DNA from: Candidatus Peregrinibacteria bacterium GW2011_GWA2_33_10
Lineage (GTDB): Bacteria > Patescibacteriota > Gracilibacteria > UBA1369 > GWC2-33-13
Direction of reading: 5' to 3'
DNA length: 64,000 bases
Assembly (NCBI GenBank): GCA_000989565.1
Contig: LBOO01000001.1
Coordinates: 32,032-96,031, forward strand
Positions 1,676-16,225 of the stretch are shown piece by piece. The first letter of the stretch is position 1. Every line of letters begins with the position of its first letter. A program made the translations under genes and the position numbers. The notes under the pieces were generated by a model. That model ran no database searches, had not been told where the DNA came from, and worked only from the letters and a program-made list of their open reading frames with translations.

Positions 1676-3505
1676 TTATTTCCTCGCGTTTAAAACATTA
1701 TATCCCCTTGTAAACGCATTAATCGATGCCACTATCACGTCCGGAGAAGTTCCGGAACCCGTAACCTCATTACCGAATTTATCGCGCATTTTTATTCTCA
1801 CTTCCACCACAGCGTCAGTTCCGGGAGTATCAATTTCCACATTATAATCAACCAAACTGAAATTAAGGGAATCTTTACCTTTTATCCCATTCTTTATGGC
1901 ATTTATAATCGCATCAACAGGCCCAACACCATTTGCCTCGCTTTCAAAAATTTCTTCTTTAAATCTCAATTTGACTGACGCGCTAGGTTTATCATGCATT
2001 TGCACATTCAAATGAAAATCCAATACTTTCAAAACCTCTTCCGCGAAAGCATGCTCTTTCAACGCGTTCTCAACTATATATTGTAAATCCGCTTTGCGCA
2101 TTTGAGTATTTTTTTCACTGAATTCCTTAATATTATCGTAAACTTTCTGCAAATAAATATTTTGTAAATCAATATTGAATTCTTTTTTAATGATTTTTTG
2201 TAATTCCTTGCTGTCCGAAGGAACTTTTTTCCATAAAATATCTTCTTTATTATTCATCAATGCAGACCTTATATTATATAATTTTAAATCAATATAACGA
2301 TCAATTTCCTCGATTTCAGGATCTAAAACCGCAGGATCAGGCAAATTTTTCAAAGCACTGATCGGATCTTTCAGACCAACACCGGTCATCACTAAAACAA
2401 CGCTGGAATTATTATCAATTTTTTTATCTTTTACTAATTTATTCAATGCCGCTAAAGGTAATGCACCGGAAGGTTCGACGAATATTGATTCTTCTTTTCC
2501 CAATTGCTGCTCTGCTTCCAAAGCTTCCAAATCCGAAACTGAAATAGCCATTCCCTTAGACTCTTTAATCGCATTTAAAACCAAATTGCCATCCAAAGGA
2601 AAATTAACCGCAATCGCGCTGCAAATAGTATTTACTTTATCCCATCTTTTAATAGGTTGTTTTTTACTGAAAGCTTCAACGATTGTTGCACACCCTTCAG
2701 TTTGAACTCCAATTAACTTAGGTAACTTATCAATGAATCCGAGTTCAAAATATTCTTTAAACCCTTTCCAAATAGCTGATAAATTTGTTCCGCAACCTAT
2801 TGGACAAATCAAATAATCAGGCGGCTTCCAATATAATTGTTCAATAATTTCATAAGCCTGTGATTTCTGACCTTCCCTACGAAAAACATAATCACCCGCC
2901 AAGTAAAATTTATGTTTTTTTGCCATTTCTTCGGCTAATTTCGCGCAAACACTATAAGTATCGCGAATTTGTAATACTCTCGCTCCATAAGTTAAAGATT
3001 GCGATAATTTACCAATTGGTGTTCCTTCAGGCACTAATACATAGCATGGTATGCGTGCCAAAGAAGCGTAAGCCGCGGCGCTCGCAGCCATATTTCCCGA
3101 AGAAGCCAAACAAATCGCTTTAGCATTCATTTCCAAAGCTTTTGTTATTTCAACTAAAGTTCCTCTATCCTTAAAAACACCTGTAGGATTCGCACCTTCA
3201 TTTTTAACATATACATCTTTAAGTTTATATTTTTTAGCTAAATTCGATGTTGTATAAAGAGGAGTCCCGCCTTCCTTCAAAGTAACGATTTTTTCAAAAT
3301 CCATAATCGGATAAAAATCCGCATATTTCATGGCTGATAAAGGTGCTTTCCTTAATGAAAAGTTATTCAAACGCGTTTTAATTCTATTATAATCATAAAT
3401 AACATCCAAAGAATCACCGCAATTTAAACAAGTGGTTACAGTTTGAGATTCATCAAAATCAGTTTTACATGACACGCATTGAAGTTTATAAAATTTCGTA
3501 GGCAT
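1676..3505 (-). CDS. thrC: threonine synthase-like PLP enzyme fused to C-terminal LeuA-type allosteric domain
   Basis: N-terminal zinc ribbon CxxC…CxxC, PLP motif 'NPTGVFKDRGT', 'ASSGNMAASAAAYA'; C-terminal 'ANGVGPVDAIINAI…DTPGTDAVVEVRI…GSGTSPDVIVASINAF' typical of the LeuA regulatory domain. Confidence 0.85.
   Translation of the reverse strand: MPTKFYKLQCVSCKTDFDESQTVTTCLNCGDSLDVIYDYNRIKTRLNNFSLRKAPLSAMKYADFYPIMDFEKIVTLKEGGTPLYTTSNLAKKYKLKDVYVKNEGANPTGVFKDRGTLVEITKALEMNAKAICLASSGNMAASAAAYASLARIPCYVLVPEGTPIGKLSQSLTYGARVLQIRDTYSVCAKLAEEMAKKHKFYLAGDYVFRREGQKSQAYEIIEQLYWKPPDYLICPIGCGTNLSAIWKGFKEYFELGFIDKLPKLIGVQTEGCATIVEAFSKKQPIKRWDKVNTICSAIAVNFPLDGNLVLNAIKESKGMAISVSDLEALEAEQQLGKEESIFVEPSGALPLAALNKLVKDKKIDNNSSVVLVMTGVGLKDPISALKNLPDPAVLDPEIEEIDRYIDLKLYNIRSALMNNKEDILWKKVPSDSKELQKIIKKEFNIDLQNIYLQKVYDNIKEFSEKNTQMRKADLQYIVENALKEHAFAEEVLKVLDFHLNVQMHDKPSASVKLRFKEEIFESEANGVGPVDAIINAIKNGIKGKDSLNFSLVDYNVEIDTPGTDAVVEVRIKMRDKFGNEVTGSGTSPDVIVASINAFTRGYNVLNARK
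1679..2026 (-). other. LeuA allosteric (dimerisation) domain fused to threonine synthase
   Basis: Motifs PSASVKL, ANGVGPVDA, TPGTDA, GSGTSPDVIVAS, matching the C-terminal domain of 2-isopropylmalate/citramalate synthases. Confidence 0.8.
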
Positions 3506-3600: not shown

Positions 3601-3969
3601 CTACTCCAACGCCACACATTCAATCTCCACCATCGCACCTTTAGGAAGCGCAGCTACTTCAACAGTCGCCCTTGCAGGCTTATGCGGAAAAAAATTGGCA
3701 TAAACTTCATTTACCAGAAAAAAATCATTTAAATCTTTCAAATAAATGGTTGTTTTTATAACTTTTTCCAGCGAAGAACCGGCACTTTCAAGTACATTTT
3801 TCAAATTTTCGCATACCTGAGCAGTCTGTCTTCCGGAATCACCATTAACCAGCAGACCTTCAGTGTTTAAAGGAATTTGACCGGAACAAAAAATAAATCC
3901 ATTTGCTTTTATGGCCTGACTATATGGCCCAATAGCTTCCGGAGCCTTATTTGTTTTAATAAATTCCAT
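3601..3969 (-). CDS. ridA: RidA/YjgF family enamine/imine deaminase
   Basis: 'APEAIGPYSQAIKANGFIFCSGQIPLN', 'PARATVEVAALPKGAMVEIECVA'. Confidence 0.95.
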   Translation of the reverse strand: MEFIKTNKAPEAIGPYSQAIKANGFIFCSGQIPLNTEGLLVNGDSGRQTAQVCENLKNVLESAGSSLEKVIKTTIYLKDLNDFFLVNEVYANFFPHKPARATVEVAALPKGAMVEIECVALE

Positions 3970-4862: not shown

Positions 4863-5972
4863 TCAGTGATCCCTTACAATCGCCTCCGCAATATAATCCC
4901 CCATTTCCATTGTTCTGACTTTTCTCAACCCCTCCCTATAAATGTCCCCTGTCCGTATCCCCTTTTCCAAAACATTAATCACGGCATTCTCAATTGCTTC
5001 TCCTTCTTTAATCATAGAAAAAGAATATTTTAACATCAAAGCTGCTGATAAAATTTGGGCGATTGGATTGGCAATATTTATTCCCGCGATATCCTGTGCG
5101 CTGCCGCCGATAGGTTCAAACAAACCAAAATTTTTATCATTAAGAGACGCGGAAGGAGCCATTCCTAAAGAGCCACTGATTACTGAGCCTAAATCACTTA
5201 AAATATCTCCAAACATATTTTCAGTTAATAAAACATCAAAATAATTGGGATTTTTCATTAATTGCATGGCCGCATTATCAACATACATAAATTCAAAGTC
5301 CACATTCTTATTTTTTTGCGCGAATTCTTTTGTGATTTTTCTCCAAAGTAAACTGCAATCAAGAACATTCGCTTTATCAACAACAGTAATTTTTTTATTT
5401 CTTTTCTCAGCTATTTCCACAGCTAATTTTATAATTCTACGAATCTCACTCTCTTTATAAGACATGATATCGATGGCAACTTCCTCTCCGTTATCCATAT
5501 AAGTTTTATGCTCCCCAAAATAAATTCCACCTGTTAATTCTCTTAAAATCATTACATCAACACCATTTTCCACAATATTATTTTTTAGAACGGAAAGCTC
5601 TATTAATGGCTTATACAAATAAATAGGTCTTAAATTCGCGTATAAATTAAATTTTTTTCGTAGTCCTAAAAGCGCGTTTTTTTCCACTCCCTGCCATTTT
5701 TTCTCAGTTTGTTTATCCACCGGCCCGCCAACCGAACCAAACAAAATCGCATCACAATCACTGCACGCGTCTAACGTTTTTTGAGGTAAATGTTCACCAT
5801 AAACATCATAAGCCGCTCCTCCGACCAATTCCTCATTATATAAAAATTTATGATCAAAAATCACCGCGATTTTATCTAAAACCTTAATCGCTTCCCTCAT
5901 AACTTCCGGTCCAATTCCATCCCCCGCCAAAACAGCAATCTTCTTTTGCATAAAAAAAATAATTCTAAACAT
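4863..5972 (-). CDS. leuB: 3-isopropylmalate dehydrogenase
   Basis: 'IAVLAGDGIGPEVM', 'LRELTGGIYFGEHK', 'NMFGDILSDLGSVISGSLGMAPSAS', 'FEPIGGSAQDIAG'; true start probably MQKKIAVL. Confidence 0.93.
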   Translation of the reverse strand: MFRIIFFMQKKIAVLAGDGIGPEVMREAIKVLDKIAVIFDHKFLYNEELVGGAAYDVYGEHLPQKTLDACSDCDAILFGSVGGPVDKQTEKKWQGVEKNALLGLRKKFNLYANLRPIYLYKPLIELSVLKNNIVENGVDVMILRELTGGIYFGEHKTYMDNGEEVAIDIMSYKESEIRRIIKLAVEIAEKRNKKITVVDKANVLDCSLLWRKITKEFAQKNKNVDFEFMYVDNAAMQLMKNPNYFDVLLTENMFGDILSDLGSVISGSLGMAPSASLNDKNFGLFEPIGGSAQDIAGINIANPIAQILSAALMLKYSFSMIKEGEAIENAVINVLEKGIRTGDIYREGLRKVRTMEMGDYIAEAIVRDH

Positions 5973-12445: not shown

Positions 12446-14473
12446 TTATTTCACATTGCGAACAGCGATTAAAATTTTATTTTTATCAATCTGTTCTTCT
12501 TTTTCCAAATCCCATTCAAAATTTCCTTTTTGTTGAATTTCCAAAGCAAGAGTTTCTTTCATAATAAATTCGGCAAATTCACTGATCACATTCTGCAAAT
12601 CTTTGGATTCCAAATATAAATAGATACGATCATCAACATTATAATCAGCTTCTTTTCGTAGCTCCTGAGTATAACGAATAATATCACGCGCAATACCCTC
12701 TTTTTTCAAAATCTCCGTAATATTTGTATCAAGAGCCACAACTAAACCTTTTTCGCCACTAATCTCCATATGTTGAGATCCTTTGCTGGCAGTAAATACA
12801 ATTGTAGCTTCATCTAAAGAAGGATCTAAAATTTCATCTGAAATTTTTATTTTTCCATCCTCTAAAATTTCATAATTACTCATATTAACGGCTTCAATTA
12901 AAGACTTCATTTTTTCTTTCAATCTCTCTCCAACTACGCGAAAATTAATTTTTACCGATGGTTTCGCGATTTCCGTGGCTTTATTGATAAATTCTATATT
13001 TTTAATATTTAATTCTTCTTTTAAAACGTCAACATCCAAATGAAATTTCTCAAATTCAGGAAGAGCGACAATTAATTTATTGAGAGGTTGTCTTACTTTC
13101 ACTTTCGCATTCGCTCTGCACCTATGCCCTAATTCAACGATTTTTCGCATTATTGCTATCTCTTCGTTTAAATTTAAATCTATCAATTTATTATCAGCCT
13201 CCGGCCAATTTTCCATATGAACGGATTCTTTGCCTGTTAAATTCGTAAAAATCTCTTCGCTGATAAACGGTGTAAATGGAGCCATTAATTTTGCCAGATT
13301 AAGTAAAACATAATATAGAATACTATAAGCCTCATTTTTGTCGTCATCATTTTCACTTTTCCAAAATCTCCTTCTTGATCTGCGTACATACCAGTTTGAT
13401 AAATTGTCGATAAAATCCGTAAAAAGACGTGCGGCTTGAGTCAAATTATATTCATCCATATATTTTGAAACTCCTTGAATCAAAGTTTGAAGTTCGGAAA
13501 TAATCCATTTATCCAGTTTATTGGTTGCTTTTAAGTTGAATTTCTCAGTATTCCAATTGTCGATATTGGCATAAGTTACAAAAAAACTATAAGTATTCCA
13601 TAAAGTTAAAATGGTTTTTTTCACAACTTCTTCCACGTGTTTTTCGGAAAATCTTACATCTTCAGCCAATGGAGCGGTTGAAGTATAAAGAAAATATCTC
13701 ACGGCATCCACTCCCCTACTTTCAAAAAGATCATTAGGATCAGGATAATTCTTCTTTCTTTTGGATAATTTCTCACCATCCGCAGCCAAAAGTATGCCGT
13801 TAACAATCACATTATTAAAAGCAGGTTTATCAAAAAGAATAGTTGATAATACATGCAAAGTATAAAACCAACCTCTGGTTTGATCCAAACCTTCCGCGAT
13901 AAAATGGGCGGGAAAATTTTCCTCAAACTCACTTTTATTTTCAAAAGGATAATGAAGCTGAGCGTAAGGCATAGCCCCGCTTTCAAACCAACAATCGAAA
14001 ACCTCAGAAATTCTATGCATTTTATCTCCGCATTTTTCGCAGGTTAAAATAACATTATCAATATAGGGCTTATGCAAATCCAATTCCCCAACATTATCAA
14101 TAGGTTCATTGCCGATTACAAATTTTTTATATTCGCAATTTTTCATCAATTTTCCATTTCTGACTTTATAAGCGGCATTTTCAATGGTAATTCTGCCAAG
14201 CGCGACTTCCAAAGCCATTAAAGGAGTTCCATGGCTGACAATTAACACTTTTTTACCTTTATATGTATTTTTAACATATTGAACAAATTTTTTCATTCTT
14301 TCCACAATATCTTGTAAATTTTCAATTTCCGGTGAAATTTTCTTTTCAATTAACTCTTTGGAAGAATTGAATAAATTTTGATGTTCGGTAACATGTTTTG
14401 AATCATATTCACCAAAATGCATTTCATTGATTAAAGGACTGACAATGACATCAAGATTAAACTTTTTTGCCAA
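12446..14473 (-). CDS. ileS: isoleucyl-tRNA synthetase, C-terminal part (downstream of in-frame TAA; begins inside the inserted phosphatase domain)
   Basis: 'KPYIDNVILTCEKCGDKMHRISEVFDCWFESGAMPYAQLHYP', 'DGEKLSKRKKNYPDP' (KMSKS-like); same frame as the upstream ORF. Confidence 0.9.
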   Translation of the reverse strand: MAKKFNLDVIVSPLINEMHFGEYDSKHVTEHQNLFNSSKELIEKKISPEIENLQDIVERMKKFVQYVKNTYKGKKVLIVSHGTPLMALEVALGRITIENAAYKVRNGKLMKNCEYKKFVIGNEPIDNVGELDLHKPYIDNVILTCEKCGDKMHRISEVFDCWFESGAMPYAQLHYPFENKSEFEENFPAHFIAEGLDQTRGWFYTLHVLSTILFDKPAFNNVIVNGILLAADGEKLSKRKKNYPDPNDLFESRGVDAVRYFLYTSTAPLAEDVRFSEKHVEEVVKKTILTLWNTYSFFVTYANIDNWNTEKFNLKATNKLDKWIISELQTLIQGVSKYMDEYNLTQAARLFTDFIDNLSNWYVRRSRRRFWKSENDDDKNEAYSILYYVLLNLAKLMAPFTPFISEEIFTNLTGKESVHMENWPEADNKLIDLNLNEEIAIMRKIVELGHRCRANAKVKVRQPLNKLIVALPEFEKFHLDVDVLKEELNIKNIEFINKATEIAKPSVKINFRVVGERLKEKMKSLIEAVNMSNYEILEDGKIKISDEILDPSLDEATIVFTASKGSQHMEISGEKGLVVALDTNITEILKKEGIARDIIRYTQELRKEADYNVDDRIYLYLESKDLQNVISEFAEFIMKETLALEIQQKGNFEWDLEKEEQIDKNKILIAVRNVK

Positions 14474-14671
14474 GATGGAAGCAGTCTCTTGTGATCTTAA
14501 AAGTTCTTAAGATATAACAACATCAATTTTTTCATTTTTAATCTCATCAGCTAATTTTTCAGCTTGTTTAATGCCATTTTCTGTTAATCCCAATTTTACG
14601 CTAGGATCAGAATGAATCGTATTATTCAAAGTGCCTTCATATTCACCATGTCTAGCCATATAAAAATGTAT
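14087..14671 (-). other. histidine phosphatase (phosphoglycerate mutase-like) domain inserted in IleRS
   Basis: RHG motif 'FYMARHGEYEGT', 'LLRSQETASIL', 'INEMHFGEYDSK', second His 'VLIVSHGTPLMALEVALG'; flanked by IleRS segments 'ECKCIGSIDEL' and 'LDLHKPYIDN'. Confidence 0.88.
14507..14509 (-). other. in-frame TAA interrupting ileS
   Basis: Minus strand reads GTT ATA TCT TAA GAA CTT TTA AGA TCA CAA GAG ACT (VIS*ELLRSQET); frame is unchanged across the stop. Confidence 0.95.
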
Positions 14672-16138
14672 CGAAGTTTTTTCATTTTCAGACAATTCAT
14701 CAATAGAACCAATACATTTGCACTCCCCGCAAGATTTACATTCCCAAATCGGAATCGCCGCTCCCCAATATCTGTTACGTGAAATAGCCCAATCTCTGGC
14801 GTTTTCAAGCCATTTTCCAAACCTGCCATCTTTTATATGAGGAGGCTGCCAACTGATTTTTTGGTTATTTTCCAATAATTTCTCTATAATTTCTGAAACT
14901 TTGATAAACCAACTTCCTGTCGCGTAATTCAAAAGCGGAGTATCGCAACGCCAACAATGAGGATAAGAATGACGATATGATTCCTTTGAAAATAAAAATC
15001 CTTTTTTAATTAAATAATCAGCGATATTTTGATCCTGACCTTTTACAAATTTTCCCGCGAAATCAGTAACTTCGCTCGTAAAATTTCCTTCCATATCAAC
15101 ATGTTTGATAAAAGCCAATTTGTTTACTTTCCCCGCATTCAGATCATCTTCACCAAAAGACGGAGCAATATGCACTATTCCGGTACCATCCTCAATACTC
15201 ACAAAATCAGCTAAAATTACTCGATATGAATTCTCGATATTTTCAACATCTTTATTTATAAAATAATCAAATAAAGGTTTATATTTTTTATTCTCCAAAT
15301 TTTCACCTTTAAAACTTTCGATAACTTCAAATTCCTTATCTTTCATGACTTTCTCCAATAATTCTTTCGCCAAAATATAAAAATTTTCACCTGATTTTAT
15401 TTTTATATAATCAATATTTTTACCTACCGCAAGCGCGGTATTACCAGGCAAAGTCCATGGCGTAGTGGTCCAAGCTAAAATAAAAGTATTTTTTTCATCC
15501 AATAATTCAAATTTCGCGGTTACTGACAAATCAGTCACATCTTTATATCCTTGGCTAACTTCAAAATTTGAAAGAGGAGTAACGCATCTCGGACAAATAT
15601 GCATTGATTTATAACTTTTATAAACCATTTCTTTATCCCATATACTTTTAAAAACCCACCATATTGATTCCATATAACTATTTTCCAATGTCGCGTAAGT
15701 TTGTTCAAAATCCACCCATCTGCCTATTCTCTCAAATAATTTTGCCCATTCCGAAGAATACTTAAAAACACTTTCTTTACATTGAAGATTAAAATTATCA
15801 ATCCCAAATTTTTCAATTTCTTTTTTGCCGGAAATATTCAGACTTTTTTCGATTTCATATTCCACAGGCAATCCATGACAATCCCAACCATTTGTACGCG
15901 GTACAAAAAATCCTTTCATATTCCAATATCTTGTTACTGCGTCTTTCAAAGAATTTGCCATTATATGACCATAATGAGGCAATCCATTGGCAAAAGGCGG
16001 ACCATCGAAAAAAACATATTTTTGATTCTCCTTATTTTTTTCTACGGATTTTTTAAAAATATTATTTTTACGCCAATACTCAATGATTTCATGCTCAACT
16101 TCAGGGAGGTTTTTGCGATTATCTACCTTTTTAAACAT
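14507..16138 (-). CDS. ileS: isoleucyl-tRNA synthetase, N-terminal part (upstream of in-frame TAA)
   Basis: 'FFDGPPFANGLPHYGHIMANSLKDAVTRYWNMKGF' (HIGH region), 'GWDCHGLPVE', 'AWTTTPWTLPGN'; likely start MFKKVDNRKNLP. Confidence 0.93.
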   Translation of the reverse strand: MFKKVDNRKNLPEVEHEIIEYWRKNNIFKKSVEKNKENQKYVFFDGPPFANGLPHYGHIMANSLKDAVTRYWNMKGFFVPRTNGWDCHGLPVEYEIEKSLNISGKKEIEKFGIDNFNLQCKESVFKYSSEWAKLFERIGRWVDFEQTYATLENSYMESIWWVFKSIWDKEMVYKSYKSMHICPRCVTPLSNFEVSQGYKDVTDLSVTAKFELLDEKNTFILAWTTTPWTLPGNTALAVGKNIDYIKIKSGENFYILAKELLEKVMKDKEFEVIESFKGENLENKKYKPLFDYFINKDVENIENSYRVILADFVSIEDGTGIVHIAPSFGEDDLNAGKVNKLAFIKHVDMEGNFTSEVTDFAGKFVKGQDQNIADYLIKKGFLFSKESYRHSYPHCWRCDTPLLNYATGSWFIKVSEIIEKLLENNQKISWQPPHIKDGRFGKWLENARDWAISRNRYWGAAIPIWECKSCGECKCIGSIDELSENEKTSIHFYMARHGEYEGTLNNTIHSDPSVKLGLTENGIKQAEKLADEIKNEKIDVVIS

Positions 16139-16225
16139 TTTAATTAAATTAAAGAACATTCTTTATTATTATAATAAAAAAAGTTCAGGAAGCAAGCACG
16201 GGTAATGTGATTATTATCAAAATAA

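Follow-up and report, generated by a model that had tools for sequence, protein, structure and literature searches.

The fusion protein encoded by the minus strand at positions 1676 to 3505 of the window (the whole stretch of 64,000 nucleotides of Candidatus Peregrinibacteria bacterium GW2011_GWA2_33_10 that was analysed) is probably an allosteric biosynthetic threonine deaminase that is derived from a threonine synthase and inhibited by isoleucine through a LeuA/CimA-type domain. It is probably not a threonine synthase. We infer the threonine deaminase reaction, the isoleucine ligand, the inhibitory sign of the control and the dimer of this protein, whereas its architecture, descent, recurrence, gene neighbourhood, co-occurrence across genomes, residue changes and pocket type were observed in the analysis. 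It also seems fairly likely that evolution has produced an isoleucine-controlled threonine deaminase twice. In the second case, the phosphate site of a threonine synthase would have been lost and a sensor of the citramalate-synthase type added. The resulting enzyme would be the usual first isoleucine step in isoleucine-making Patescibacteria, DPANN archaea, and NC10, and its name there, threonine synthase, would be wrong.

Architecture of the fusion and its surroundings

The fusion gene has an ATG start and no internal stops and encodes 609 amino acids. The protein consists of a Zn ribbon, a threonine-synthase-type PLP domain, a LeuA linker, and a LeuA_dimer domain in that order. The N-terminal Zn ribbon (residues 6-34, positions 3404 to 3490, minus strand) carries C10, C13, C26, and C29. 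The four cysteines are kept in about 79 of the 88 homologues, and the homologue alignment exhibits their loss in the proteobacterial/Dadabacterial branch of the fusions. The PALP catalytic domain (residues 74-375, positions 2381 to 3286, minus strand; Pfam PF00291, E 7.5e-72) contains, within NPTGVFKDRG, the PLP lysine K112, which is invariant across the 88 homologues. The NCBIfam LeuA models match from about residue 437 (437-448), which indicates that the LeuA linker is also present. This linker (about residues 395-469, positions 2099 to 2323, minus strand) forms helices in the AF2 model. The LeuA_dimer regulatory domain (residues 470-604) is located at positions 1694 to 2098 of the minus strand. 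The AlphaFold model is confident along the whole length of the fusion, with a mean pLDDT of 88.5.

The preliminary description had read this gene as a threonine synthase fused to a LeuA-type allosteric domain and had quoted motifs from both parts. The two-part protein is upheld, where the open reading frame is complete, all of the motifs were found and Pfam gives both PALP and LeuA_dimer. The LeuA_dimer profile that had been proposed as a check on the C-terminus matches it with an E value of 9.2e-29 and a score of 100 bits, where the cut-off is 24.9 (PF08502).

The gene for RidA, an enamine/imine deaminase (Pfam PF01042, E 2.6e-41), lies directly upstream of the fusion gene (positions 3601 to 3969, minus strand). 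The gene for LeuB, 3-isopropylmalate dehydrogenase (TIGR00169, 447 bits, above the cut-off), adds further branched-chain context at positions 4863 to 5972 of the minus strand. The Rfam search for RNA regulators near the fusion gene gave one tRNA and nothing else on the window.

The window also contains an isoleucyl-tRNA synthetase (positions 12446 to 16159, minus strand) with a histidine-phosphatase domain (PF00300) inserted in its catalytic domain. The insert contains an in-frame TAA (positions 14507-14509), which may be a sequencing error or a real break and divides the synthetase gene into two open reading frames of 550 and 675 amino acids. Another fusion-bearing Patescibacterium (L063) has an open isoleucyl-tRNA synthetase of 1207 amino acids with a similar RHG insert, and the isoleucyl-tRNA synthetases of L039/L055 and L059 are without the histidine-phosphatase insert.

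Fold, ligand pocket and origin of the regulatory domain

The top Foldseek matches of the C-terminal model include Leptospira citramalate synthase in complex with isoleucine (3f6g and 3f6h, the best matches), with a TM-score to the target of up to 0.86, an rmsd of 2.2-2.6 and an E value of 1.4e-10 to 3f6g. The leucine-bound LeuA of Mycobacterium (3fig) is also among the top matches. Together with the PF08502 match, these matches bear out the earlier assignment of the C-terminus to the LeuA/CimA-type regulatory domains. The isoleucine pocket of the Leptospira enzyme, which we take to be formed by L451, Y454, I458, T464, and V468 (this numbering fits the PDB chain), aligns with L551, Y554, I558, T563, and V567 of the fusion. 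The predicted ligand-pocket strand is located at positions 1805 to 1855 of the minus strand.

Two positions separate the sensor types. Position 558 is Ile in 75 and Val in 8 of the 83 fusions, and position 567 is Val in 79 of them. The 30 LeuAs carry Ala (28) at position 558 and Gly or Ala (30) at position 567, whereas CimA carries Ile/Val and Thr/Val at these positions. Having Ile/Val at position 558 and Val at position 567 as in CimA, the fusion is predicted to possess a pocket of the isoleucine type. The sensing of a branched-chain amino acid, which had been suggested earlier, is therefore likely, and the pocket residues favour isoleucine as the best candidate ligand. In addition, LeuA_dimer is confined to the fusion in the order-mates G010, G011, G021, and G023, so that a LeuA or CimA carrying the domain is missing there. 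The absence of an ordinary LeuA from these genomes argues against leucine as the signal.

A threonine deaminase whose domain senses leucine or valine, acts as an activator or mainly holds the subunits together is an unlikely alternative, although it is the one that survives best. The domain family does include leucine sensors (LeuA), dimerisation is part of its role, and the ligand type is read from few pocket residues. However, those residues are of the citramalate-synthase (isoleucine) type, the closest fold is an isoleucine complex, and the domain is kept in genomes that have IlvC and no LeuA and is lost in G001, which is without both. The G001 homologue is a protein of 405 amino acids without LeuA_dimer (L046 8973-10187, G001:C25). 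Its neighbourhood is that of the fusion (phosphoglycerate kinase and lumazine synthase) minus ridA. It retains the signature residues of the fusion and nests among the Patescibacterial fusions with weak support. The G001 genome yielded no IlvC, no homoserine dehydrogenase, and no LeuA_dimer protein. The threonine deaminase model predicts that the sensor is lost once isoleucine synthesis has ceased, and G001 is a single case of this.

In the tree of the regulatory domains, the fusion domains form one group (support 100) that excludes the LeuA and CimA domains from related genomes. One LiCMS fragment on a long branch (3.2) falls inside this group and was given no interpretation. A recent capture of the LeuA domain of the host was rejected, as all fusion domains form a single clade that is distinct from LeuA and CimA. 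The sensor that had been described as transplanted is thus indeed of the LeuA/CimA type, and the domain phylogeny places it in one old clade and not as a recent copy of a host LeuA. A single old fusion event followed by later spread would explain the trees of both the catalytic and the regulatory domains.

Taxonomic distribution of the fusion

The search of 40 genomes identified the full-length fusion in the genome under study and in 8 of its 39 order-mates, and the homologue without LeuA_dimer in G001. Among the best 80 of 210 relatives from named genomes, nearly all are full-length two-domain proteins. The carriers among these best 80 include Patescibacteria (Peregrini-, Gracili-, Gottesman-, Dojka-, Jackson-, and Wirthbacteria), NC10/Methylomirabilota, Nitrospinae, and DPANN archaea (Nanohaloarchaeota, Woese-, Micr-, and Aenigmarchaeota, and Diapherotrites). 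Single MAGs labelled Deltaproteobacteria, Dadabacteria, Burkholderiales, and Neisseriaceae are also among them, and their proteins are without the Zn-ribbon cysteines. In total, about 78 homologous loci are distributed among Patescibacteria, NC10, DPANN archaea, Nitrospinae, and a few proteobacterial/Dadabacterial MAGs. A chance join or an assembly artefact in one MAG was ruled out by the recurrence in order-mates and at these loci. No paper naming the domain arrangement of the fusion was found in a literature search that reached few subscription journals.

Descent and substrate-site residues of the catalytic domain

The catalytic domain of the fusion groups with the class-II threonine synthases and is split from IlvA with SH-aLRT 100. 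The best PDB matches are threonine synthases, the best sequence-family models also name threonine synthase, and the fusions score over the cut-off of the ThrC equivalog model (TIGR00260), so that public databases can be expected to list them as threonine synthase. With the IlvA model (TIGR01127), whose cut-off is 378.75, the fusion scores 109 bits, and it lies outside the IlvA clade. The ACT-like PF00585 domain was not found at its C-terminus, for which Pfam gives LeuA_dimer only. The cysteate synthase model gives a weak match.

The class-II ThrC proteins (2zsj, 2d1f, 1uim, and 6cgq) share the catalytic fold, the ancestry, the PLP lysine motif, and about 35-40% identity with the fusion, and some members also have the Zn ribbon. 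The fusion differs from them in its LeuA-type C-terminus, in having no tie to the homoserine pathway and in substrate-site residues. These residues were compared between 88 homologues (some from the same genome in two collections, and one without the regulatory domain) and 15 class-II threonine synthases from fusion-bearing genomes. Gly204-Asp205 is present in 88/88 homologues, whereas Asn-Ser is present in 15/15 threonine synthases and in five PDB threonine synthases. Met139 in 88/88 homologues replaces Thr in 15/15 threonine synthases. Position 116 is Thr/Ser in the homologues and Met in the threonine synthases, with zero overlap. The AGN of ThrC is also changed to GTN.

The solved threonine synthases keep the NS[VLI]N-xR and STGNT motifs, where the Arabidopsis protein has D for N. 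In the fusion, LAGDYVFR (residues 202-209, positions 2879 to 2902, minus strand) occupies the place of the NS[VLI]NPxR motif. The ThrC motifs NS[VLI]NPxREGQK and STGNT are thus not present in the fusion, which does exhibit the fold-type II PLP domain with NPTGxFKDRG. The fusion keeps Arg209 and the greater part of the active site of threonine synthases. Thr88, Asn154, Ser155, and Arg160 of the Thermus threonine synthase presumably hold the substrate phosphate, and the conserved residues around this phosphate are replaced in every copy of the fusion, with the exception of Arg209. The threonine synthases of Thermus, Bacillus, and Microcystis possess a threonine deaminase side activity (PMC12172450), so that the switch would be chemically small.

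Gene order across the homologous loci

The fusion is located in ilv operons of several arrangements. The order in Gottesmanbacteria is ilvD-ilvB-ilvN-ilvC-fusion-ridA-ilvE. Peregrinibacteria exhibit fusion-ilvE-ilvD-ilvC-ilvB, fusion-ilvD-ilvB-ilvN-ridA-ilvC, and ilvE-ilvB-ilvN-fusion-ridA, and the proteobacterial MAGs exhibit ilvB-ilvN-ilvC-fusion. Within eight genes of the fusion, an ilv gene occurs at 36 of the 78 loci, ridA at 27, and at least one of the two at 44, whereas thrB or thrC occurs at none (0/78). The commonest nearest neighbour on the same strand at these loci is RidA (24), followed by IlvC (12) and IlvE (10). NC10 is the main exception, where the fusion is not in an ilv operon. 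No branched-chain transporter was seen near the NC10 fusion when the neighbourhood was scanned by eye.

Co-occurrence with genes of the threonine and isoleucine pathways

The genome under study has a separate thr cluster (L048) that consists of AK-HSD (778 amino acids), asd, an open reading frame of 224 amino acids, thrB, thrC (442 amino acids), and ilvD. The thrC of this cluster is canonical and distinct from the fusion. IlvA is absent among the five PALP proteins of this genome. IlvC was not found in it (86.8% complete), and the isoleucine pathway is incomplete in the available sequence. Another unusual fusion of the same genome is an open frame of 773 amino acids with a Mur-ligase-like N-terminus and a PALP domain (L006 1492-3810, G000:C27; 103 bits to PF00291).

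The co-occurrence sample consists of 55 fusion genomes that are mostly MAGs, whose incompleteness inflates every absence. Homoserine dehydrogenase is present in 36/55 and was not found in 19/55, so that no source of O-phosphohomoserine is evident in the 19 genomes. Some of these are nearly complete (G021 with 99%, G023 with 97%, and G011 with 96%). A separate threonine synthase was identified in 32/36 fusion genomes with homoserine dehydrogenase and in 2/19 without it (Fisher p 1e-8). This p value overstates the independence of genomes that are related, and the association still spans several phyla and two domains. The second threonine synthase therefore goes together with the homoserine pathway, whereas the fusion shows no such link. 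Occurrence with homoserine dehydrogenase and kinase, which is expected of ThrC and was judged on homoserine dehydrogenase, is thus not exhibited by the fusion.

The co-occurrence with isoleucine genes is different. IlvC is present in 52/55 fusion genomes, including 19/19 without homoserine dehydrogenase. A protein of the IlvA family (at least 190 bits to TIGR01127) is present in 4/55 (G048, G050, G055, and G080) and missing in 51/55. Among 287 genomes sampled from the phylum, IlvC was identified in 8, IlvA in 10, and the fusion in 4, and the fusion and IlvA never occurred together. The fusion thus occurs with IlvC, in ilv operons and where IlvA is absent, which is the genomic role of a threonine deaminase.

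CimA provides a second route to 2-oxobutyrate and is found alongside the fusion in at least three genomes (G058, G059, and G061). Two order-mates without the fusion, G015 and G027 (L168 and L169), have a CimA-like protein, which suggests that 2-oxobutyrate has another source in some members of this order.

The same evidence bears on whether the fusion still makes threonine. A bifunctional enzyme that would produce threonine from O-phosphohomoserine where it is available and also deaminate threonine, and whose sensor would act on either or both of these reactions, is improbable. It would agree with the side activity of the threonine synthases described above and with G010, G025, G041, and G074, which have a homoserine dehydrogenase match and no separate threonine synthase. 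However, these four exceptions may be MAG gaps, as ThrC is present in G013, the sister genome of G025. The threonine-synthase motif is also lost invariantly in all copies, and a second threonine synthase is kept in most genomes with the homoserine pathway.

A true threonine synthase under feedback control by a branched-chain amino acid, which was the proposal of the preliminary description, is quite improbable. It is favoured by the TIGR00260 score and by the placement of the catalytic domain and its best PDB matches among class-II threonine synthases. It is opposed by the separate ThrC in the genome under study and in most fusion genomes with homoserine dehydrogenase, by the 19 fusion genomes without this enzyme, by the absence of the fusion from beside thrB or thrC and by the replacement of the motifs around the substrate phosphate in all copies. 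The name threonine synthase fits the descent of the catalytic domain and probably not a controlled threonine-making step. Threonine production is probably not what the sensor controls, given the canonical ThrC in the AK-HSD-asd-thrB-thrC cluster of the same genome, the loss of the phosphate-site residues and a fusion that persists without the homoserine pathway and that stands in for IlvA, in ilv operons and next to ridA. The conversion of threonine to 2-oxobutyrate is the most likely target of the control.

Another substrate (serine dehydration or a beta-replacement like that of cysteate synthase) is very improbable, where fold-type II PLP enzymes switch substrate easily and the cysteate synthase model does match weakly, but the ilv operon position, the ridA neighbour, the IlvA replacement, and the IlvC co-occurrence all point to 2-oxobutyrate.

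Proposed mechanism and comparison with known systems

As a threonine deaminase, the fusion would accept L-threonine into its PLP site (Lys112), and beta-elimination of water would give 2-aminocrotonate/2-iminobutyrate. RidA is known to hydrolyse the enamine/imine products of threonine and serine dehydratases. The RidA encoded by the adjoining gene would hydrolyse this product to 2-oxobutyrate, from which the IlvB/N, C, D, and E enzymes would produce isoleucine. The C-terminal LeuA/CimA-type domain would dimerise with isoleucine at the dimer interface, and the bound isoleucine would lower the catalytic activity, which is the job of the unrelated ACT-like domain in ordinary IlvA.

Comparing the fusion with IlvA (1tdj, 9d2q, and 8y1j), both would share the proposed reaction, the operon position, the isoleucine feedback, and the RidA partnership. 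However, the catalytic domain of IlvA belongs to another fold-type II branch, and its regulatory domain is the unrelated ACT-like PF00585. The isoleucine-bound domain of Leptospira citramalate synthase is similar to that of the fusion in fold and in its L, Y, I, T, V pocket, whereas it is carried by a TIM-barrel synthase that makes a precursor of 2-oxobutyrate from pyruvate. LeuA (3fig and 1sr9; L001 in the genome under study) shares the linker and the LeuA_dimer domain family, but it is a leucine sensor with Ala and Gly/Ala at two pocket positions and belongs to a separate domain clade. The moonlighting threonine synthase of Microcystis is also a threonine-synthase-type protein that deaminates threonine. 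Unlike the fusion, it still makes threonine, and the accessible part of its report describes no LeuA-type domain (PMC12172450).

Significance of the fusion

If the fusion is such a threonine deaminase, the missing IlvA step would be filled in many uncultured lineages. A systematic database error, in which the ThrC equivalog model names the fusions threonine synthase, would be corrected. The predictions of which microbes need threonine or isoleucine from their neighbours would also be revised. The fusion would then be a case of convergent regulation, where an isoleucine-restrained threonine deaminase has been built from two enzymes with two unrelated sensor domains.
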